From Pelagovum sp. HNIBRBA483 (GTDB taxonomy: Bacteria > Pseudomonadota > Alphaproteobacteria > Rhodobacterales > Rhodobacteraceae), in contig NZ_CP162412.1 of NCBI RefSeq assembly GCF_040931995.1, forward strand, positions 1,426,001 through 1,490,000: 64,000 nt of DNA, in the 5' to 3' direction. The notes under the pieces were generated by a model. The model ran no database searches, was not told the origin of the DNA, and saw nothing but the letters and a program-made list of their open reading frames with translations. The stretch's first letter is position 1. Each line of letters begins with the position of its first letter. The position numbers were made by a program, and so were the translations under genes. Positions 5,549 to 18,638 of the stretch are shown here, piece after piece.

Positions 5549-7621
5549 ATGAGCGGTTTGGCGGGCTGGATGGCGGTGCGTTTGGAAACGCAGCGCGGGC
5601 GGTTGCTGCTCTGGGCGCCGGTGCTGCTGGCCTGTGGGATCGGGGCCTATTTCGGGCTGGCGGAGGAGCCGTGGATTGCCGGTTGGGCTGGGCTGGTTGT
5701 GCTCGGTTTTGCCGTGGATCGGCTATTGCCAAGCCCGTGGTGCCTGTTGCCGCGGGCGGGGGCCGTGGTGGCGCTGGGGCTTGTTATCGCCGCGCTGCGG
5801 GCGCAGGCGGTGGCGGGGCCGGTGCTGGAGTACCGCTTTTACGGGCCGGTAGAGGGGCGGATCGTGGCGATTGACCGCTCCGCTTCAGATGCCGTGCGGT
5901 TGACACTGGATCGCGTGATCTTGGGCGATATGCCATTTGCCGACACGCCGGAACGGGTGCGGCTCTCGCTGCACGGGCAGCAGGGGTTCATCGCGCCAGA
6001 ACCGGGGATGGTGGTGATCACGACTGCGCATCTATCGCCGCCCGCAGGGCCGGTAGAGCCGGGGGGATATGACTTTCGCCGCGCGGCGTGGTTCGACCAG
6101 TTGGGCGCGGTAGGGTATACGCGGGTGCCTGTCTTGATGTTGTGGCCGCCTGAAGGAGGGGCGAAGCTCTGGCTGACGCGGCTGCGCACGCGGTTTGCCG
6201 CCGCGATCATTGCAAACATGCCGGAGAGCGCAGGGGCCTTCGCCGCTGCGATCATCACGGGCGACCGTTCCGCCATCCCCACGGAGGCGACGGAAGCGCT
6301 TAGACGCTCAAATCTGGCGCATCTTTTGGCGATTTCGGGACTGCATATGGGGCTACTGACCGGAGGTGTCTTCGTCATGCTGCGGCGCTTTGTGCTGGCG
6401 GCGGCGCTGATATCTGGCAGGCGGCTTGGTGGGCCAGACCGGCAGCGAAAGGGCGCGGCGCTGGCGGCGGTGTTGGCGGGGGCGGGGTACCTCGTGCTGT
6501 CAGGCGGCAATGTGGCGACGGAGCGGGCCTTCGTGATGGTGGCGATCATGTTTGGCGCGGTGTTCGCGGGGACGCGGGCGATCTCGTTACGGGCGGTGGC
6601 GGTGGCGGCATTGCTGGTGTTGCTGCGGCGGCCAGAGGAGCTGCTGGGGCCGGGGTTCCAGATGTCTTTCGCGGCGACGGTCGCGCTGGTGGCAGGGTTC
6701 GAGCGGGGGCGGGGGGTGATGCAAAGGGCGGCGCGGTGGCCCTGGATCGTGCGATGGGGCGGCGGGGTTGCGGCCTCCTCGCTGATCGCGGGGCTGGCGA
6801 CCGCGCCGGTGGCTTTGGCGCATTTCAATATGAGCGCGCAATATGGCCTGTTGGCGAATGTGCTGGCGGTGCCGGTGATGGGGGCGGTGGTGATGCCCGG
6901 TGCGCTGGTGGCGGGGTTCGGCGCGTTGTTCGGGGCCGAGGCGCTTGGCCTATGGGTCATGGCCATTGGCATTGATTGGATCTTGGCCGTGGCGCGGGTG
7001 TTTGCGGAGCTGCCGGGCGCTGTGCGGTATGTAAAGGCACCTGCGCCGGTTGTCTTGCCTCTGTTTGCCGCGGGTGCGCTCTGGTGGCTGCTGTGGCGCG
7101 GGCGTTTGCGGCATGCAGGGGTGTTGGTGGTGGCGGGAGCCGTGTTGATTTGGGCGCAGACGCCGCGCCCGCTGGTGCTGGTTTCGGATACGGGCGGGTT
7201 GATCGGCTGGCTCGGGCCGGAAGGGCGGGTGCTCTCCAAGCCGCGGGGCGACGGGTTTGCCGCCGATATTTGGTTAGAGAATGACGGCGCGCCGGTGCCG
7301 CAGGAACTGGCTGCGGGCCGTGACGAGCTACGACGGGACGGACGGCGGATCACGCTCGATATGGAGAGCGGACAGCGGATTGTTTTGGTGACGAGGAAGC
7401 AAGCCTTGGCCGCGCTGGACGGGGGGTGCGGCGGCGCGGATGTGCTCATCGCCAATACGGTTGATCCAATCCCAACACGGCCCTGCGACCGCTATGACGC
7501 GGCGCGGTTATGGCAGACTGGCGCACTTGCGCTGTTCCCCGGCGTGGAAGGGGTGCGGGTTATCACCGCCCGCGCGATGGCGGGGCGGCGGCTTTGGCAT
7601 AATGATCAGCGAGATCAGTAG
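5549..7621 (+). CDS. comEC: ComEC/Rec2-family DNA uptake channel protein
   Basis: 690-residue polytopic membrane protein. An N-terminal soluble OB-like region (about 85-200) precedes the competence core, whose signature [12 protein letters not shown] is seen near residue 260, followed by many Ala/Leu/Val-rich helices to about residue 535. ComEC forms the inner-membrane channel for single-stranded DNA. The C-terminal ~140 residues do not contain the HxHxDH metal site of the metallo-beta-lactamase domain in Bacillus ComEC, so the nuclease-like domain is absent or degenerate. The start has AAGGAC-AAGGG upstream. The stop overlaps the convergent lexA stop region by 7 bp. Confidence 0.88.
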
Positions 7622-8406: not shown

Positions 8407-9579
8407 CTAAAGCCGGATGATTGAAACGGGCGTGCCTGCGGGCTGAGCTGGATCGTGCGGCGGGCGGACAAGGAGGCAATCAGCCGTGGCGAGAACGGTG
8501 AGGAGTGCGCTGTCTTGCCGCTCGAACGGGATGACGCGGCCTTCTTCGAGGCGGGCGCGCATGTAGTGCTCGCGGGGGCCGTTGGCGGCGATGTCGCGGC
8601 CCACAGGAGCGGTTTGGCGCGGCAGCGCGGCGCGCGGCAGGCCCTGCATCGCGCGGATCACGGGGCGCAGGAACACATGGCCGCAGACCAGTGAGGAAAC
8701 GGGATTGCCCGGCAGCCCGACCATCATCGCGCCGGACAGCGTTCCCGCCATCAGCGGTTTGCCGGGACGCATGGCGATTTTGTAAAATGCGCGGCCCATG
8801 CCGAGGTCGGACGCGACCTTGCCCACGAGATCATGATCCCCCACCGATGCGCCGCCGATTGTCACGATGAGATCGGCCCCTTGGGCCATCTCGAAGGTGA
8901 GGCGCAGGGCGCTTTCGGTATCGCGGGCGATCGGCAGGAGGCGGGGACGCGCCCCATGTTCGCGCAGGAGGGCGGCGAGGCCCAATGCGTTGGAGGCGAT
9001 GATTTGGTCGGGGCCGGGGGTTTCGCCCGGTTGGACCAGTTCGTCGCCCGTGGCGATGATGGCGACCTCTGGCTGGCGGTAGACGGGCACGGTGGCGTGG
9101 TTCATCGACGCCAGAAGGGCGATATCGGCGGGGCGGAGGAGGTGCGGCGCGGCGAACGGGGTGCCCTCTGCGAAATCGGCTCCGGCAGGGCGGATGTTGG
9201 CGCCGTCGCCGATATCCGGCCCGAGGGTGATGCTGTCGCCTGTGCGGGTGACGTCCTCTTGCAAAACGACCTTGTCGGCGCCTTCTGGAACCGGCGCGCC
9301 GGTGAAGATGCGGACGGCTTTGCCGACGGTCACGCTGCCTGAAAAGCCATGCCCTGCGGCGCTTTCACCTATGACGGTAAGGGCTGCGCCGGTGGCAACG
9401 TCAGCGGCGCGGACGGCGTAGCCATCCATTGCCGAGGCTGGGAAGGGCGGTTGCGTCAGGCGGGCGGTCAGCGGGCGGGCAAGGACGCGGCCCGAGGCCT
9501 CGGCCAGTGGCACGTCCTCCACGCCCAGCACAGGGGCAAGGGCGAAAAGGTGATCAAGCGCCTGCGCGACGGAGATCAT
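8407..9579 (-). CDS. moeA: Molybdopterin molybdenumtransferase MoeA
   Basis: 390 residues, normal length for MoeA, which inserts molybdate into adenylylated molybdopterin to make Moco. Visible are the N-terminal [14 protein letters not shown] region, the MPT-binding-like core with GGASVGDHD and PGKPLMAG, and [12 protein letters not shown]. The start codon overlaps the moaC stop (ATGA), placing it at the end of a minus-strand trpG-trpD-trpC-moaC-moeA operon. Pairing of moaC/moeA with trpC is a recurring alphaproteobacterial arrangement. Confidence 0.95.
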
Positions 9580-10058
9580 TCTGCTTCGAACCTTCCGGAT
9601 TTGCCGCCTTCTTTCAGGCGGAGGCGGATGTCGCGGATGACCATGTCCTTTTGCACGGCTTTGACCATGTCGTAGACGGTGAGGGCCGCAGTGGAGACGG
9701 CGGTGAGGGCTTCCATTTCGACGCCGGTTTGACCGGAGGTTTTCACTGTCGCCGTGATGCGGATGCCGGGGAGGGCGGCGTCGGGCGTGAGGTCGAGGGC
9801 GACCTTGGTGATCGGTAGCGGATGGCAGAGCGGGATCAGATCGGCGGTTTTCTTGGCGCCCATGATGCCTGCGAGACGGGCGATGCCCAGAACGTCGCCC
9901 TTCTCAGCGCGGCCTTCGGTGACGAGCGCGAGGGTTTCGGCACTCATCTGGATCGCGCCTTCGGCCACGGCGATGCGGTTTGTCACCGGCTTGCCGGAGA
10001 CATCGACCATATGTGCTTTGCCGCCATCGTCGAAATGGGTGAGCTTTCCGTCAGACAT
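9576..10058 (-). CDS. moaC: Cyclic pyranopterin monophosphate synthase MoaC
   Basis: 160 residues. MoaC converts the MoaA product 3',8-cyclo-GTP to cyclic pyranopterin monophosphate in Moco synthesis. Family blocks are intact: [29 protein letters not shown], and [19 protein letters not shown] with its conserved acidic residue. A GTG directly precedes the ATG; I chose the ATG at 10058, which sits in TGATG with the trpC stop. The moaA partner is not in this window. Confidence 0.95.
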
Positions 10059-10870
10059 CACTGCCCCCCTGCGCGGAGTGGATTGGCGAGGAGGGTGCGG
10101 GTCGCCTCGGCCACGTCGTCCTTGCGCATCAGGCTTTCGCCGATGAGGAAGGTGCGCGCGCCGTAGCGGGCCATATCGGCAAGGTCATCGGGGGTGAAAA
10201 GCCCGCTTTCGCAGACGATTAGGCGATCTTCAGGCACGAGGCGCGAGAGGGTGCGCGTGGTGTCGAGCGTGACGTCGAAGGTTTTGAGATTGCGGTTGTT
10301 GATACCCATCAGCGGTGATTTGAGCTTGGCGGCACGTTCTAGCTCTTCGGCGTCGTGGACCTCGAGCAGCACGTCCATGCCCCATTCATAGGCGGCGGCT
10401 TCAAGCTCTGCGGCTTGGGCGTCCGAGACGGAGGCGAGAATGATCAGGATGCAATCGGCGTGCAGCGCACGGGCCTCGGCCACCTGATAGGTGTCATACA
10501 TAAAATCCTTGCGCAGTGCAGGCAGGGAGACGGCGGCGCGGGCGTCTGTCAGGTAGCTGTCAGCGCCTTGAAAGCTGGGCGTATCGGTGAGGATCGACAG
10601 GCAGGTCGCGCCGCCTTCCTCGTAGGCGCGGGCCAATGCGGGCGGATCGAAATCAGGGCGGATCAGCCCTTTGGACGGGCTGGCCTTCTTGATTTCTGCG
10701 ATAAGGCCGTAGCCGGTGCGGGATGCCTCCTGCAATGCATTGGCGAAGCCGCGCGGCGCTGAGGCTTCTTTCGCGCGGGCTTCGACCTCGGCCAAGGGCG
10801 TTTGCGCCTTGCGGGCGGCGACCTCTTCGAGCTTGTATGCTTTGATCTTGTCGAGAATGGTAGCGGTCAT
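10058..10870 (-). CDS. trpC: Indole-3-glycerol phosphate synthase
   Basis: 270-residue TIM-barrel enzyme that closes the ring of CdRP to indole-3-glycerol phosphate in tryptophan synthesis. Signature blocks: [13 protein letters not shown] (catalytic Lys loop), [26 protein letters not shown] and [10 protein letters not shown]. It is monofunctional, not fused to TrpF. The start overlaps the trpD stop by 4 bp, and moaC follows with a coupled start. Confidence 0.97.
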
Positions 10871-11886
10871 GCGGCCTCTTGGGTGATTTTCGCGAGGGTT
10901 TCAACGGCGCGGCGGGCAGCGCCGGAGTCGATGCTTTCGGCGGCGACGGCGACGCCTTCTGCCAGCGATGGCGCACGGTCTGCGACCACGAGCGCGGCGG
11001 CGGCGTTTAGCAAGACAGCGTCGCGATACGCGTTCTTGGCACCGTCGAGGAGGGCGGCGAAGGCTTTGCCGTTCTCCTCGGGGCTGCCGCCCAGAATAGC
11101 AGAAAGCGGGTGGACAGGGAGGCCAGCGTCTTCGGGGTGAAGTTCGCCTTCGGTCACGGTGCCGTTCTCCAGCTTGGCCACGGAGGTGGCGCCGGTGATC
11201 GAGACTTCGTCGGTGCCGTCATGACCGAAAACCAGCCATGCTTTTTCGGAACCAAGCGCCTTCAGGGTTTCGGCCATAGGCACCAGAAGATCGCTGGCGA
11301 AGGCGCCGGTGAGCTGGCGCTTGACGCCAGCGGGGTTGGTGAGCGGCCCGAGGATGTTGAAGATCGTTTTGCAGCCGAGTTCCTGCCGCGCGGGCATGAC
11401 ATGTTTGATCGCGGGGTGGTGCATCGGGGCCATCATGAAGCCGATGCCGGCCTCGCGGATGCCACGCTCGACCACATCAGCGCCGACCATGACGTTAATT
11501 CCCATCTGCCCGAGCGCATCAGCCGCGCCGGATTTGGACGACAGGTTGCGGTTGCCGTGCTTGGCCACCGGCACCCCTGCGCCTGCGACCACGAAGGCGG
11601 TGGCGGTGGAGATGTTAAGCGTACCGATCCCGTCTCCGCCAGTGCCGACAATATCCATCGCGCCAGCGGGTGCGTACACCGGCACGCATTTGGCGCGCAT
11701 CACGGCGGCGGCGGCGGCATATTCAGTCACGCTTTCGCCGCGTGTGCGCAGCGCCATGAGCAAGCCGCCGATTTGGGCGGCGGTGGCGGTTCCTTCGAAG
11801 AGTTCTTCAAAAGCGGCTTCGGCCTGTGCGCGGGTGAGCGGCCCTTCGGAGGCGGCGGAGATCAGGGGTTTCATCGCGTCGCTCAT
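10867..11886 (-). CDS. trpD: Anthranilate phosphoribosyltransferase
   Basis: 339 residues. It transfers phosphoribose from PRPP to anthranilate. The PRPP-binding loop [16 protein letters not shown] and the [15 protein letters not shown] segment are clear. The length is the normal monofunctional size, and the glutamine amidotransferase is a separate upstream gene. ATGA overlap with trpG upstream and trpC downstream. Confidence 0.97.
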
Positions 11887-12464
11887 GCCGGTTCCTTTGC
11901 GAGATCGAGAAAGTTCTGGAGAAGCTGGTGCCCGTGCTGGCTGGCGATGCTTTCGGGGTGGAATTGCACGCCGTGGATTGGCAGCTCTTTATGAGAGAGG
12001 CCCATGATGGTGCCGTCCTCCAGCCACGACGTGACCTCAAGGCAATCGGGCAGGCTGTCACGCTCGACGACGAGACTGTGGTAGCGGGTCGCTTCAAAGG
12101 GGCTGGGCAGGCCTGTGAACACGCTTTTGCCCGCGTGGTGCATCTGGCCCATCTTGCCGTGGACGATTTCGTGGCAGCGCACGACTTTGCCGCCGAATGC
12201 CTCGCCAATTGTCTGGTGGCCGAGGCAGACGCCCATCAGGGGGGTGCGGGTTTCGGCGGCGGCTTGGGTCAGAGCAAGGCAGATGCCCGCTTGCGCCGGA
12301 TCGCAAGGGCCGGGGGAGAGGAGGATCATCTCGGGCTTCAACCCAATCGCATCTTGCACGGTCAGCGCATCGTTGCGGCGGACCACCACATCGGCGCCCA
12401 GCTCGCCCAGATAATGCACGAGATTATAGGTGAAACTGTCGTAGTTATCGATCAAGAGCAGCAT
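11883..12464 (-). CDS. trpG: Anthranilate synthase component II (glutamine amidotransferase)
   Basis: 193-residue class I glutamine amidotransferase that supplies ammonia to TrpE. Nucleophile Cys80 lies in [15 protein letters not shown] and the His-Glu pair in [14 protein letters not shown] lies just before the ATG. It is the first gene of the minus-strand operon as seen here; trpE is not adjacent, because upstream lies a divergent gene. A PabA role (amphibolic subunit) cannot be excluded, but trpD and trpC follow directly. Confidence 0.94.
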
Positions 12465-12614: not shown

Positions 12615-14348
12615 GTGTTGAGAGGACTGATCAGCGGAGTTTTCTTCGGGGCCGTGGTTGCGGTTCTGGGGGTGGTGGTGCTTTCGGTTGTGGCGCCACA
12701 GCCGCCGGGGCGGGAACCGCCGCAAGCGCCTCAGGTTGATGCGCCCGAGGTCATGGGCGCGCCGACGCCCGAGAGCGCGCCTGTCACGGCGCCTGCGCAA
12801 CCGGACGCTGATCCGGTGCAACCCGCAACGATACCGGATGTTGTTGCGCCGGAGGCCGAAGCGGGTGCTCCGGTTGCGGATCAGGCCCCCGCGCCGGCGC
12901 CTGATCTGTCGCCCGAGCCGGAAAGCGCAAACGAGAATGGCTTAAGTGCCCCTGAAAGCGCTGCCGATGTGGGCGATTTGCCGGAGGCTGCCGCGCCTGT
13001 TGCCATTGCTGCGGGGCAAGCACCCGAAGCGCCCGCAGCCCCGGAAAATGAAGCTCTGCCTGATGCGGCCACCGAACCTGCGGCAGCGGCATCCCCGCCG
13101 CTGGCAGATGCGGCCGAGCCTGCGCAGCCCGCAGCGGAGGCGGTGATGTCCAGCCCATCCTTGGGTGATGCGCCGTCGATGGCGGAGGACAGCGCACCCG
13201 TGCTTGCGCCTGCTGCGACCCCCACCGCACCGACTGCGCCCGATGCGGGTGAGGGTGCCGCGCCGGAGGTGGATGCGACGAGCCGGCCCGTTGCCTTGCC
13301 CGGACTGGGCGGCGCGGATACGGCTGAAGAAATCACCGCGCCGGAACTTCCCGAAATCGCGGAAGAGATGGAAAGCCCGCTTGGGACCACCGCGCCGCAA
13401 GGCGGGACGCTGGCCGTCGTGACGCCGGAGGAGGATTCCCTTCCCGTGGTGCCGGAAGCCAGCGTTGCCGAGCCGGAGGTGGGCGCGGCGGCTCCTGTAG
13501 CGCCGGAAACCCCGCAAGAGCCTACAAATACCACCACCACCGGAGACGCGCCAGAAGTGGGATTGACGGGAACCGCCGCCAGCGTTTTGCCGGAGGGGTC
13601 GGGCGCGGTTGTCGTCAGACGGCCGGAAAGTGATGATGACAGCGCAGCAGCCGACGAAATGGCGGGCGTACCCGCGCCGCTTGAGCGGTACGCGGCCGCG
13701 GTGCCGCGCGATGCGGCGGGATTGCCGCGCATGTCCGTTGTGTTGATGGATGACGGGCGCTTGCCAAGCGCGGCAACTGTTGTTGGAGCGATCCCGTTCC
13801 CGATCTCGGTTGTTCTGAATCCCAGTGCCGCGGACGCCACGCGCCGCGCGCAAGCCTATCGGGAAGCGGGTATCGAAATTCTGGCGCTGGCTGACCTGCC
13901 TGAAGGGGCGGCCGTTTCGGACGGGATGGCGGCTGTCGAAACCGCCGACGCGGTGCTTGGTGAACACATCGGCTTGCTCACCCGTGGCAACGTGATGGGT
14001 GGGACTGTGACCGCTGATGTGAGCCGCTATTTGGCAGACCGGCTGGCCCGCGACGGACGCGGTTTGGTTGCGCTGAGCGAAGGGTTGGCAACGCCGATGC
14101 GCTATGCAGGGGAGGCGGGGCTTCCGGCTGTGGAGGTGTATCGTGATCTGGGAGAGACAACACAAGATGCGCGGGTGATCCGGCGGTTCCTTGATCAAGC
14201 CGCGTTCCGTGCGCGGCAGCAGAGCGGCATTGTTGTGCTTGGGCGGCTGAGAGCCGAAACGATCACGGCGCTGATGCTGTGGAGCGGATCGGACCGCGCC
14301 AACCAGGTTGGTCTGGTGCCGGTTTCGGCGGTGCTAAGGGGCGAGTAG
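12615..14348 (+). CDS. YibQ-like (divergent polysaccharide deacetylase) protein with long Pro/Ala linker; probable pseudoenzyme
   Basis: 577 residues starting at GTG (a TTG follows at once; GAGG lies upstream). Residues about 5-27 form a membrane anchor, about 30-365 are a low-complexity Pro/Ala/Glu linker, and about 370-577 match the divergent polysaccharide deacetylase (DUF610/YibQ) fold: VVLMDDG, then GIEILAL, a GNVMGGT loop, and GIVVLGRLRAETI. The Asp-Asp pair near 378-379 is kept. Where YibQ proteins have His (HLP, NHMG and GHP motifs, recalled from family knowledge), this protein has ADLP, GNVMG and GRLR, so the metal site seems lost. A periplasmic, envelope-spanning binding role is more likely than catalysis. 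Confidence 0.75.
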   Translation: MLRGLISGVFFGAVVAVLGVVVLSVVAPQPPGREPPQAPQVDAPEVMGAPTPESAPVTAPAQPDADPVQPATIPDVVAPEAEAGAPVADQAPAPAPDLSPEPESANENGLSAPESAADVGDLPEAAAPVAIAAGQAPEAPAAPENEALPDAATEPAAAASPPLADAAEPAQPAAEAVMSSPSLGDAPSMAEDSAPVLAPAATPTAPTAPDAGEGAAPEVDATSRPVALPGLGGADTAEEITAPELPEIAEEMESPLGTTAPQGGTLAVVTPEEDSLPVVPEASVAEPEVGAAAPVAPETPQEPTNTTTTGDAPEVGLTGTAASVLPEGSGAVVVRRPESDDDSAAADEMAGVPAPLERYAAAVPRDAAGLPRMSVVLMDDGRLPSAATVVGAIPFPISVVLNPSAADATRRAQAYREAGIEILALADLPEGAAVSDGMAAVETADAVLGEHIGLLTRGNVMGGTVTADVSRYLADRLARDGRGLVALSEGLATPMRYAGEAGLPAVEVYRDLGETTQDARVIRRFLDQAAFRARQQSGIVVLGRLRAETITALMLWSGSDRANQVGLVPVSAVLRGE

Positions 14349-14356
14349 GCGGGCGC

Positions 14357-14596
14357 CTACCAGTTCCCCCTGCGTTCGGCGCGGCGGTTGTGGATATCGC
14401 CAAGCCGTGCATCGGTGTCATCGGGTGTGAGCGCGATATCGCGCAACATCTCTTCTGAGAGGTCGGCCAGTGCTGTGCGGGTTGTGGCCCGTGCGCGGAC
14501 GACGGCCAAAAGTGCCGCGCCGTGCGAGAGAACCATGCGCAGACGTTCCATGTGGAATGTGGGGCGGTTCGTATTCGGGATGCTGTGCTGGGTCAT
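14357..14596 (-). CDS. DUF1127 (YjiS-like) small protein
   Basis: 79 residues from the ATG at 14596, which has AAAGGACAG upstream; the frame is open further upstream but without an equally good start. The C-terminal half has the DUF1127 pattern (RTALADLSEEMLRDIALTPDDTDARL), a short Arg-rich helix found in many small alphaproteobacterial proteins. Some DUF1127 proteins elsewhere bind RNA or affect phosphate and carbon metabolism; nothing here says which. It is convergent with the YibQ-like gene and divergent from the HxlR gene. Confidence 0.8.
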   Translation of the reverse strand: MTQHSIPNTNRPTFHMERLRMVLSHGAALLAVVRARATTRTALADLSEEMLRDIALTPDDTDARLGDIHNRRAERRGNW

Positions 14597-14769
14597 GATC
14601 TGTCCTTTCAACTGGAGTTGGGGGAATAAGGTCATGCGGACAGACTGCCGGATGCGCGATGCAACAGGGCAGTGTAGAAGGTGAACCAAACCTGATACAA
14701 AAGCTGTACTGGCCGCGTTTGCCTTGGGTCGTTAGGGTTGAAGCCCCGATCCGACCGAGGAGGCGTTCG

Positions 14770-15471: not shown

Positions 15472-15514
15472 TTTTTGGGGGCGACTCTTCGAAAGGGGCT
15501 TGTGCTTTCGATAT

Positions 15515-15536
15515 TATTTCGGTAATTCGCGAAATA
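15515..15536 (+). promoter_or_regulatory. Candidate ArsR operator
   Basis: Perfect 7-bp dyad TATTTCG-N8-CGAAATA; its right end is the A of the ArsR-ArsC start codon. Binding by the encoded ArsR domain would be autoregulatory. The assignment rests on position and symmetry only. Confidence 0.55.
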
Positions 15537-16384
15537 TGGAAAATACACTCATCACACAGTTATCGACGTTGGGCCATGAGGGGCGACTCGCGGTCTTTCG
15601 CCTGCTGATGCGGCGCTACCCTGACGCGGTGCCAGCGGGGGAAATCGCGGCAGCGCTCGATCTACGGCCGAGCACTTTGTCTGATTATCTTGCGTCCCTC
15701 AGGGCGGCAGGGCTGATCGGGCAGAGGCGGGAAGCGACATCTCTTTTTTACAAAGTTGATCTAGACGGAGCGGACGGGATGGTTCGCGCGCTCTATCAGG
15801 ATTGCTGCCGTGGCCGCCCGGACCTTTGTGCGACCGGATCTGATAAGACCGGCGCGGGGGCAGATGAGGGCACGGACATGGCTGGCGCGGTGTTTGACGT
15901 TTTGTTTTTGTGTACCGGAAATTCGGCACGGTCGATCATGGCCGAAGTCTTGTTGCGGGATTTGGGCGGTGTGTGGTTCAACGTGCATTCGGCAGGAACC
16001 CAGCCTTATTCAGAATTGAACCCAGATGCGCTGCGGCTGTTGGCCCTCAAGGGGCATGACGTGAGCGGCTTGCGGGCCAAGCATGTGGAGGAATTCCGTC
16101 GCGCGGGCGCGCCGCAGATGGATTTCGTGTTTACCGTTTGTGATCGGGCGGCGAATGAGGATTGCCCGGCATGGCCCGGTCAGCCGATTTCAGCGCATTG
16201 GGGGCAGCCCGATCCGGTGAAGGCGACAGGAACCGAGGCAGAGCGCGCGCTTGCCTTTCAGGAAGTTTATGGCGCGCTTCGCAGCCGGATAGCGGCCTTT
16301 ACCGCGCTGCCGCTGCACCGGCTGGACCGGCGCACAATACAATACGAGCTGGATGCGCTCGCGATGGAAAAGGAAATGACGTGA
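15536..16384 (+). CDS. arsC: ArsR-type repressor fused to thioredoxin-type arsenate reductase (ArsC)
   Basis: 282 residues from the ATG at 15536. Residues 1-88 are an ArsR/SmtB winged helix ([16 protein letters not shown], then [20 protein letters not shown]) followed by a cysteine cluster, C90, C91 and C98, that could bind As(III). Residues about 119-282 are a low-molecular-weight PTP-fold arsenate reductase: P-loop C126TGNSAR132, and C202/C210 in [11 protein letters not shown], matching the three-cysteine relay of Bacillus ArsC (C10, C82, C89). One polypeptide would thus both sense arsenite and reduce arsenate. The next gene starts in its stop (GTGA), so it leads an arsRC-gap-arsJ operon. 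Confidence 0.9.
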
Positions 16385-17379
16385 CCAAAATTGCACTGAA
16401 CGGATTGGGCCGGATTGGAAAACTGGCGCTGAAGCAGCTGTTGGAAACCGGCGCGGAGATCGCGTGGATCAACGATGCGGTGGGTGATCCGGCGATGCAC
16501 GCGCATTTGCTAGAGTTCGACACCGTGCACGGGCGGTGGGATGCCGAATTCGGCGCTGACGAGACGGGTATCACGATCAACGGGCGGCGGTTGCCGGTGC
16601 ATAATGCGCGGCGGATCGAGGATTTGCCACTCGATGGCGTGGATATGGTCATCGACTGCACGGGCGTGTTCAAGACGGAAGCCGCGCTCGCGCCCTATTT
16701 TGCAGCAGGTGTAAAAAAGGTTGTCGTGTCGGCACCGGTCAAAGACGGCCCCACGGCGAATATCGTCTATGGTGTGAACAACGAGGTCTATGACACTGCC
16801 GCGCACCAGATCGTCACGGCGGCGAGTTGTACGACGAATTGCCTCGCGCCGGTGGTGAAGGTGATCCACGAGGGCTTGGGCATCACGCATGGATCAATCA
16901 CCACGATCCATGATCTTACGAACACCCAAACGATTGTGGACCGCCCCGCAAAAGACCTGCGCCGCGCGCGTTCCGGCGTGAATGCGCTGATCCCCACGAC
17001 GACGGGCAGCGCCACGGCGATTACGCTGATCTACCCAGAGCTTAAGGGGCGTTTGAACGGCCATGCGGTGCGGGTGCCGCTATTGAATGCCTCACTCACC
17101 GACTGTGTGTTCGAAGTGGCGCGGGAGACGACCGTTGAGGAAGTGAACGCGCTGTTCGAGGCCGCCGCTGCGGGTGAATTGAAAGGCATTCTGGGCTACG
17201 AGACACGGCCGCTGGTGTCGACCGATTATGTGAACGACGCGCGGTCGTCGATCGTGGATGCGCCCTCGACGATGGTGATCAATGGCACGCAAGTGAAGAT
17301 CTATGCGTGGTATGACAATGAATGGGGTTACGCGCACCGCTTGGTTGATGTGGCGATGCTGGTGAGGGACAGCCTGTGA
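16381..17379 (+). CDS. ArsJ-associated glyceraldehyde-3-phosphate dehydrogenase
   Basis: 332-residue GAPDH starting at GTG 16381, which overlaps the ArsC stop by 4 bp. The NAD-binding start [13 protein letters not shown], the catalytic Cys in [10 protein letters not shown], and the C-terminal [11 protein letters not shown] block are all intact. In arsenic operons this enzyme uses arsenate in place of phosphate to make 1-arseno-3-phosphoglycerate, which ArsJ exports. Lying between an arsenate reductase fusion and arsJ, each with a 4-bp overlap, it is almost certainly this specialised paralogue and not the glycolytic Gap. Confidence 0.93.
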
Positions 17380-18638
17380 CGGCAGCGCCGCCGAGGGCCG
17401 GGCTTGCCGCCTATCTGACGGTGACGGCGGCATACTGGGCGTTCATGCTCAGTGATGGCGCGTTGCGGATGTTGGTGCTGCTGCATTTCCATAAGCTGGG
17501 CTTTTCGCCGGTGCAGTTGGCTTACCTCTTTGTGCTGTATGAGATCGCGGGCATGGTGACAAACCTTGGCGCGGGGTGGCTTGCAGCGCGGTTTGGCATG
17601 GTGCGGACGCTTTACGCAGGATTGGGGCTACAGATCGTGGCGTTGGTGCTGTTGGCGCAGTTGGACGCGGGATGGAGCATCGGGGCATCGGTGATCTATG
17701 TAATGCTGGTGCAGGGGCTTTCGGGTGTAGCGAAAGACCTCTCCAAGACCAGCGCGAAATCGGCGGTGAAACTGCTGGCGCCGACGGGCGAGGGCGGGTT
17801 GTTCCGCTGGGTGGCCGTGCTCACGGGATCGAAGAACGCGGTGAAGGGGGCGGGGTTCCTCTTGGGTGCGGGGCTTTTGGCGCTGGCGGGGTTTGATGCC
17901 GCCGTATGGGGCATGGCGGCAGTGCTGGCGGCGATCTTGCTGGGCGTTGTGTTGTTCATGCCGGCGGGCCTGCCTGCGGGGAAGAAGGGGGTGAAGCTGA
18001 AGGAAGTGATCTCCAAATCCCGCGACATCAATTGGCTGAGCGCGGCGCGGCTGTTTCTGTTCGGCGCGCGGGATGTGTGGTTTGTGGTGGGCATTCCGAT
18101 TTATTTCTATGTAGTGCTGTCGGATGGGACGCCGGAGGGCAACCGCGCGGCGTTTTTCATGATCGGTGGGTTTATGGCGGTGTGGACCGTGCTCTATGGC
18201 GTGGTGCAGGCCAATGCGCCGCGCTTGTTGCGGGCGCGGGAGCTGGGTGCTGATGCGCTGATCGCAACCGCGCAGCGGCTGGTCTTGGGGCTGGCCGTGG
18301 TGCCGATTGTGCTGGCAGTGCTGGTGTGGCTGGTGCCGGGCGCACCGCTGTGGCTGACGATGATACTGGTGCTGGGGCTTTTGGCATTTGGTGCCGCGTT
18401 CGCGCTGAATTCGGCGGTGCATTCCTACCTCATCCTCGCCTTTGCCGAGGCGGAGCGGGTGACGATGGATGTGGGGTTTTACTACATGGCGAATGCAGGC
18501 GGGCGGCTGGCGGGGACGCTGCTGTCGGGCCTGTGCTACCAGTGGGGCGGCGTGGAGGCGTGCCTCGCGGCTGCGGGTATCATGCTGATCCTCAGCCGCG
18601 TGATGGCGGGGCGGCTGGGAGCCGCCGCCGCCGCGTAA
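17376..18638 (+). CDS. arsJ: ArsJ organoarsenical (1-arseno-3-phosphoglycerate) efflux MFS transporter
   Basis: 420 residues, start GTG 17376 overlapping the GAPDH stop (GTGA). It has an MFS-like pattern of about 10-12 hydrophobic helices. Early blocks [21 protein letters not shown] and [15 protein letters not shown], and the middle [14 protein letters not shown] region, are typical of ArsJ. It should export 1-arseno-3-phosphoglycerate, which breaks down to arsenate outside the cell. Last gene of the arsenic operon; it ends 3 bp from the convergent dddP stop, with no terminator visible between them. Confidence 0.9.

Follow-up and report, generated by a model that had tools for sequence, protein, structure and literature searches.

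A trp-locus YibQ/SddA orthologue without its zinc site in Rhodobacteraceae: a likely tethered, non-catalytic binder in the periplasm

Results

The window studied here is the whole 64,000-nt stretch of the Pelagovum sp. HNIBRBA483 genome under analysis (contig NZ_CP162412.1, positions 1,426,001 to 1,490,000). Divergently from trpG runs a reading frame, unbroken over 577 residues, that encodes an anchored protein with a PF04748 domain, the domain of YibQ (SddA in E. coli). The features of the locus are as follows, in window coordinates and with SddA numbering for the ligands.

8407-11886, minus strand: trpD, trpC, moaC and moeA, the conserved context of the locus
11883-12464, minus strand: trpG, the divergent neighbor, which with trpD and trpC identifies this as the trp locus, where the ligand-intact paralogue lies
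12615-14348, plus strand: the whole gene (577 aa, GTG start), for an anchored and tethered PF04748 (YibQ/SddA-type) protein without the zinc site
12639-12695, plus strand: residues 9-27, a predicted anchor in the inner membrane (19 residues with a mean hydropathy of 2.88)
12696-13640, plus strand: acidic Pro/Ala/Glu tether of ~315 residues (53% P+A+E)
13740-14333, plus strand: PF04748 domain, residues 376-573, a predicted NodB-like barrel (Pfam profile, AlphaFold2 model)
13746-13754, plus strand: M378-D379-D380, with the D31 equivalent lost, D379 equivalent to D32 and D380 out of register (alignments)
13887-13889, plus strand: L425 in place of zinc ligand H78 (alignments)
13983-14003, plus strand: RGNVMGG loop (457-463) in place of NNHMGS, with G458 (MAFFT) or R457 (hhalign) at H123
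14142-14153, plus strand: R510-D-L-G513, which puts Arg at 176 and Gly at 179 (MAFFT, hhalign with profile A3, HMMER against 2nly)
14244-14246, plus strand: R544 in place of H209 of the GHP motif (alignments)

This is the only PF04748 gene in the genome, which is 99.08% complete. Immediately 3′ of it, and convergent, is a gene for a DUF1127 small protein (14357-14689, minus strand), at a place where many relatives carry trpE. Farther along, on the plus strand (15500-18638), Pfam identifies a low-molecular-weight phosphatase/arsenate-reductase-like domain joined to an ArsR-type HTH in one protein, followed by genes for a GAPDH and an MFS transporter. This group resembles a GAPDH/ArsJ-type arsenate cluster.

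The initial annotation had described a Pro/Ala/Glu tether of ~330 residues hung from an inner-membrane anchor. Both are present as predicted features, but the tether is nearer ~315 residues; it is net acidic by 52. A comparable N-terminal hydrophobic stretch occurs in 108 of 124 Rhodobacteraceae copies. Anchor and tether are not novel to copies that lack ligands, since 14-15 of the 18 intact reference copies have them too. Among copies with a recognized anchor, the median tether is 274.5 residues in Rhodobacteraceae (106 of 122 copies), 110 residues at intact trp loci (14 of 18) and 138 residues in the envC-type paralogue described below (23 of 23). The Rhodobacteraceae tethers are ~2.5 times longer than the intact ones (p 2e-8, kinship uncorrected) and carry more acidic charge per residue.

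The PF04748 profile matches the whole protein with E 8e-14 (51.7 bits) and the C-terminal 227 aa alone with E 5.4e-15 (55.5 bits), above the cutoff of 27.5 and well beyond chance. An NCBIfam search with the window protein gave no credible family, and the single window domain reached at best E 0.095 against PDB sequences in phmmer. The solved structures 2nly and 2qv5 were picked up by profile A2, which comprises 59 aligned domains, those of the window and of 58 of the 80 named loci; the 22 others were omitted, L171 for a frame break and the rest by eye for size. In L171 (Salipiger bermudensis AmN7-7, 6001-6872) the break lies inside the match, and the gene is apparently either broken or misread in the assembly.

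Structure prediction, a check proposed by the initial annotation, was run with AlphaFold2 on the A2 domains, and the domain folds confidently in the model (mean pLDDT 91.0, pTM 0.90). The sole segment with confidence below 50, domain residues 109-113, is the NVMGG loop (protein residues 459-463). The closest solved structure is 2qv5 (Z 24.3, rmsd 2.5, 219 aligned), which is Agrobacterium Atu2773 and lacks the ligands as the window protein does. The second is 2nly (Z 23.1, rmsd 2.3, 203 aligned), and Foldseek also puts these two on top. With a profile match above the curated cutoff and a 2NLY/2QV5 barrel in the predicted model, the protein belongs to PF04748 by homology. Two PF01522 proteins are encoded elsewhere in the window's genome, so other deacetylases of the superfamily may be present. 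BA3943, which we take to be of the PF01522 type, belongs to another family and represents a separate loss. By the title of its PDB entries (6hpa, 7bkf) it is a CE4 pseudoenzyme; it has the wider deacetylase fold and reaches Z ~16 against the window model.

The zinc ligands of E. coli SddA are reported to be D31, D32, H78 and H123, and mutating the Asp pair or either His kills activity (PMC12440217). All four are invariant across profile A4, which holds SddA and 13 intact copies and to which A2 aligns with probability 99.0 and E 2.5e-18 (hhalign). The motifs from which the initial annotation had read a loss of the metal-site histidines (VVLMDDG, ADLP, GNVMG and GRLR) are all present, and the alignments bear that loss out, with L425 at H78 and G458 or R457 at H123. 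Its statement that the Asp-Asp pair is kept has to be corrected. In the ungapped hhalign register, MSVVLMDDG lies over LAIVIDDFG, and the pair is shifted by one: M378 stands at D31, D379 at D32, and D380 opposite the Leu/Phe position of IDD[LF]G, in a column that is mostly Leu/Val/Met in intact copies. The GHP motif is indeed lost, R544 replacing H209, although PMC12440217 does not count H209 as one of its four ligands. In all, one of the four ligand positions, the D32 equivalent, is retained. The domain has no Cys and a single His, off every ligand column, and no alternative ligands were seen in the sequence. With three of four ligands gone, the known zinc-dependent deacetylation of glycan strands would not be expected, and by its ligand residues the window protein would not count as an SddA-type zinc deacetylase.

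We compared the family, called Rhodobacteraceae (class Alphaproteobacteria) from the named loci. PF04748 is found in 124 of 149 genomes, each a different genus. Profile A2 finds a copy in 122 of 149 and a partial match in G187, and 24 of 149 have no copy by either profile. The ligand count (n = 124) takes one trp-locus copy from 123 of the 124 PF04748 genomes and adds the congener G001; G018, with an envC-type copy only, was left out. Both histidines are absent from 121 of these 124 copies. His is present at H78 in two (G009 and G264) and in the H123 column in three (the same two and G257, whose loop is unlike NHMG); Asp is present at D31 in 3 and at D32 in 107, and Cys in one. The initial annotation asked whether all Rhodobacterales orthologues share the histidine loss; nearly the whole Rhodobacteraceae family does, and two early-branching genera retain both residues. 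Orthologues with intact histidines, named by the initial annotation as evidence against its reading, do exist in part, as positional orthologues in other Alphaproteobacteria families and as those 2 of 124 copies; they date the loss without refuting it. Nine of the 41 columns that are near-invariant in 19 intact copies remain in at least 85% of 122 Rhodobacteraceae copies (W221, E74, A198, G72, L191, T214, D179, D32 and L218). Rhodobacteraceae-specific residues are conserved as well, such as the IRRFLDQAAFRA stretch, mostly invariant in A2.

The incomplete genome G264 holds two trp-type copies (L058/L125 and L126), each with both histidines. In the copy whose N-terminal motif can be read, D32 has become Glu and Arg176 is already there; no PF13629 was seen in G264.

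Many Alphaproteobacteria genomes carry two PF04748 genes. The ligand-intact type, whose reference rows were chosen for intact motifs, adjoins trpGDC/trpE in 7 of 9 wide loci, with no trp gene seen at the other two. The second type sits in an envC-ctpA-yibQ-rppH operon in 23 of 23 wide loci, with gpmI in most and trp neighbors in none. Each of the 31 envC-type copies has at most one of the four ligands left (H78 in 0, H123 in 4, D32 in 5, D31 in 0). The Rhodobacteraceae genes have an adjacent trp gene in all 19 wide and all 80 named loci, and at none of these loci do envC, ctpA or rppH stand beside them. The envC operon itself has no yibQ at any of the 11 loci compared, one in the window's genome and the rest in ten others; rppH is recognized beside ctpA in eight and unrecognized in three. 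Thus, the window gene is not an envC-linked pseudo-YibQ of the Atu2773 type: it adjoins trpG, and its genome's own ctpA-rppH carries no copy. By profile, Atu2773 lies nearer the envC-type paralogue than the intact set (243 bits with A3 and 171 bits with A4, respectively), and it is described as lacking ligands, envC-linked and perhaps an inactive regulator (PMC12440217). An envC-type copy is retained in G009, G196 and G018.

The split between the two loci is not absolute. Among 20 single-copy genomes, which are mostly lower-scoring among those found, 17 have a ligand-poor copy only, with rppH nearby, and the remaining three have an intact copy, at the envC locus in two. L358 and L359 (G101, G076) are intact four-ligand YibQ genes at an envC-ctpA-rppH locus, as in Gammaproteobacteria. 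Because Pseudomonas has an envC-ctpA-PA5135 arrangement (reported in PMC12569750), the envC locus is probably the ancestral home of the gene.

A first tree of 82 rows had long branches, and a second kept 55 of the 82 after 27 were removed (10 long or degenerate, 17 thinned). On the second tree the Rhodobacteraceae genes join, with 99/98 support, L006 (G009, all ligands), L058 and L126 (G264, both His), L129 (G196) and L010 (G005). The branch leading to the typical Rhodobacteraceae copies measures 2.28 changes per column. By locus and tree, the window gene and the ligand-intact trp-locus YibQ of other Alphaproteobacteria families are positional orthologues. That YibQ (for example L131-L134) resembles it in locus, anchor and fold but has four intact ligands and a shorter tether. 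Loss of both histidines takes two changes on this tree, and the envC-type paralogue apparently lost its ligands separately from the Rhodobacteraceae copies. Placing both ligand-less groups in a single clade costs 12.9 log units but is not rejected by the AU test (p 0.17); two losses of the zinc site are likely and not proved. Alignments, tree and ligand comparison together support the descent from an enzyme that the initial annotation had proposed.

Residues outside the active site say less about the type. Two columns separating the trp and envC types were found, and they point opposite ways. By profile log-odds, 99 of 119 copies come out on the trp side, a weak lean overall (median 13.6, range -21.5 to 35.3). 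A YAxPF-like motif upstream of the domain (16 of 31 envC-type, 44 of 119 Rhodobacteraceae and 3 of 37 intact copies) was considered as a link to the envC type and set aside, as early relatives are by eye also trp-like there.

The domain is under purifying selection: of 14 close pairs, 13 have a dN/dS of 0.04-0.29 and one is saturated. These ratios are rough, pS being 0.5-0.7 in several pairs. The window and its congener L143 give 0.125 for the domain. The N-terminal part is looser, at 0.20-0.59. The confident fold and this selection point to a pseudoenzyme, not a relic.

The two ligand-less lineages mostly share Arg176, which is found in none of 37 intact copies, and mostly keep Asp179, the window's copy excepted. 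Position 176 is Val/Ile in all 37 intact copies and Arg in 23 of 31 envC-type and 110 of 119 Rhodobacteraceae copies; the three envC-type copies from Rhodobacteraceae have Val, Val and Ala, and Arg176 needs seven changes on the tree. Asp occupies 179 in 37 of 37 intact, 30 of 31 envC-type and 107 of 119 Rhodobacteraceae copies (109 of 124 in the full trp-locus count). The window protein has Gly513 there, except that hhalign with A4 places D511 at 179. Arg176 occurs in 99 of 104 copies with D32 vs. 11 of 15 without (Fisher p 0.015, kinship uncorrected). A D32-Arg176 salt bridge in place of the zinc was considered on this co-occurrence and is not claimed.

A studied relative connects this domain to pili. 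Caulobacter CpaM, of 394 residues, has one N-terminal transmembrane segment and a periplasmic deacetylase-like domain, is recruited to the pole by the periplasmic DUF3426 of ZitP and is required for assembled CpaC secretin and surface pili (PMC5182063). CpaM and S. meliloti SMc03784 are reported to carry a PF04748-type domain, SMc03784 being 59% identical to Atu2773 and 39% to CpaM (PMC10934763). The 39% value is compatible with either type for CpaM, since envC-type copies have a median identity of 44.9% among themselves and of 35.5% to trp-type copies (95th percentile 42.0). The CpaC N-domain (PF13629) occurs in 18 of 19 Rhodobacteraceae genomes of the first set, including the window's. DUF3426 was found in 0 of the same 19 vs. 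8 of 12 others, by a weak profile that scores the Caulobacter control below cutoff. Across the family, 13 of the 19 genomes without PF13629 lack the gene, vs. 12 of the 130 that have PF13629 (Fisher p 5e-8, kinship uncorrected; 5 of the 25 gene-less genomes inferred by elimination). Among 132 near-complete genomes, the gene is missing from 12 of 15 without CpaC vs. 8 of 117 with it (p 1.4e-9, kinship uncorrected). The gene occurs without CpaC in six genomes and CpaC without the gene in 12.

Discussion

Our analysis suggests that a trp-locus YibQ/SddA kept its fold, anchor and tether while its zinc site was lost within Rhodobacteraceae. The barrel would hang from the inner membrane, in the periplasm, on a long acidic chain, and a tethered protein of this kind, no longer catalytic, could hold or place an envelope machine. 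The likeliest machine would be CpaC, the secretin of the Tad/Cpa pilus, as with CpaM in Caulobacter; an SddA-like alternative would be EnvC and an amidase. We hold with moderate confidence that this trp-locus orthologue without a zinc site is a tethered, non-catalytic periplasmic binder acting most likely at CpaC. The envelope-spanning binding role that the initial annotation had suggested is an idea that CpaM fits by analogy.

It is useful to set the window protein beside the closest known systems. E. coli SddA, which deacetylates GlcNAc in denuded strands, is likewise an exported PF04748-domain protein (PMC12440217). It is active with D31, D32, H78 and H123, three of which the window protein lacks, and it is envC-linked with a C-terminal disordered tail, whereas the window protein is trp-linked with an N-terminal tether (PMC12440217). 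CpaM has a PF04748-type periplasmic domain behind one N-terminal anchor, a build predicted for the window protein too, and works through partners at an envelope site (PMC5182063). At 394 aa, CpaM has a much shorter tether, and it is recruited by the DUF3426 of ZitP (PMC5182063), a domain that our weak profile did not find in 19 Rhodobacteraceae genomes. With CpaM as the studied relative and CpaC co-occurring with the gene, a Tad-pilus partner is favored over the septum.

A non-catalytic role at the division septum, with EnvC and an amidase and unrelated to pili, seems rather unlikely to us. E. coli SddA does work at the septum, and Atu2773 has been proposed as an inactive EnvC-linked regulator (PMC12440217). 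The window's genome has one Amidase_3 gene and a ctpA with an adjoining EnvC-like M23 gene. Position 179 bears on this role, because D179A SddA is still active but leaves the septum and does not inhibit NlpD-AmiC (PMC12440217). The conservation of Asp179 across the trp-locus copies favors septal work, and the Gly at 179 that most alignments give the window protein speaks against it. Further, H123A SddA neither inhibits NlpD-AmiC nor causes chaining, and SddA's known effect thus needs catalysis (PMC12440217). The window gene is also not envC-linked, and its co-occurrence with CpaC points away from the septum.

It is improbable, in our view, that the domain is instead a metal-free enzyme whose site was rebuilt for a new reaction on D379, E421 and newly fixed Arg residues. 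D32 (87%), E74 (99%) and Arg176 (92%) are conserved in 122 copies, the domain is under purifying selection, and the metal-independent PuuE allantoinase uses a related NodB fold (PMC10967932). However, most other polar columns of the old site (N121, N122, H123, D151, S152 and H209) are down to 0-10%, the AlphaFold2 model gives no well-defined H123 loop, and E74 is already there in intact copies and is not a published ligand.

More improbable still is that an envC-type pseudoenzyme moved into or overwrote the trp-locus copy, the zinc site having been lost once, not twice. The envC operon without yibQ at all 11 loci, the Arg176 common to most copies of both groups and the failure of the AU test to reject a joint clade would fit such a replacement. 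But the 99/98 tree puts the Rhodobacteraceae genes with the intact trp-locus copy of their own family, residues outside the active site lean, if weakly, to the trp type, in G196 an envC-type copy coexists with a trp copy poor in ligands, and the three Rhodobacteraceae envC-type copies lack Arg176. Finally, a jobless, decaying gene is a very faint prospect, despite the very long branch and the genomes without a copy, given no internal stop among the matches listed, the low dN/dS of the domain, its confident fold and the new residues conserved across the family.

The preferred reading of a tethered binder at the secretin invites a broader, more speculative proposal, which we regard as possible but doubtful. 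Many SddA-type proteins of Alphaproteobacteria may be selected for holding an envelope machine and not for deacetylation. In Rhodobacteraceae, the envC copy would have been dropped, and the trp-locus enzyme, without its zinc site and with a longer tether, would have become a portal factor for the Tad pilus, like CpaM.

Parts of this picture are in print: the ligand loss of Atu2773 is described in PMC12440217 and the function of CpaM in PMC5182063. In the open-access literature searched, we found no published description of the Rhodobacteraceae-wide loss. SddA was reported in 2025 to be the first Gram-negative peptidoglycan deacetylase, and one ligand-less relative was noted. Nearly all Rhodobacteraceae copies lack the zinc site, yet they are under selection, longer-tethered and found together with the Tad-pilus secretin. 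A catalysis-independent job of ligand-less SddA relatives thereby becomes testable, and two separate literatures are joined, on SddA at the septum and on CpaM at the pilus. For the family itself, the "polysaccharide deacetylase" labels on the Rhodobacteraceae copies are probably wrong.
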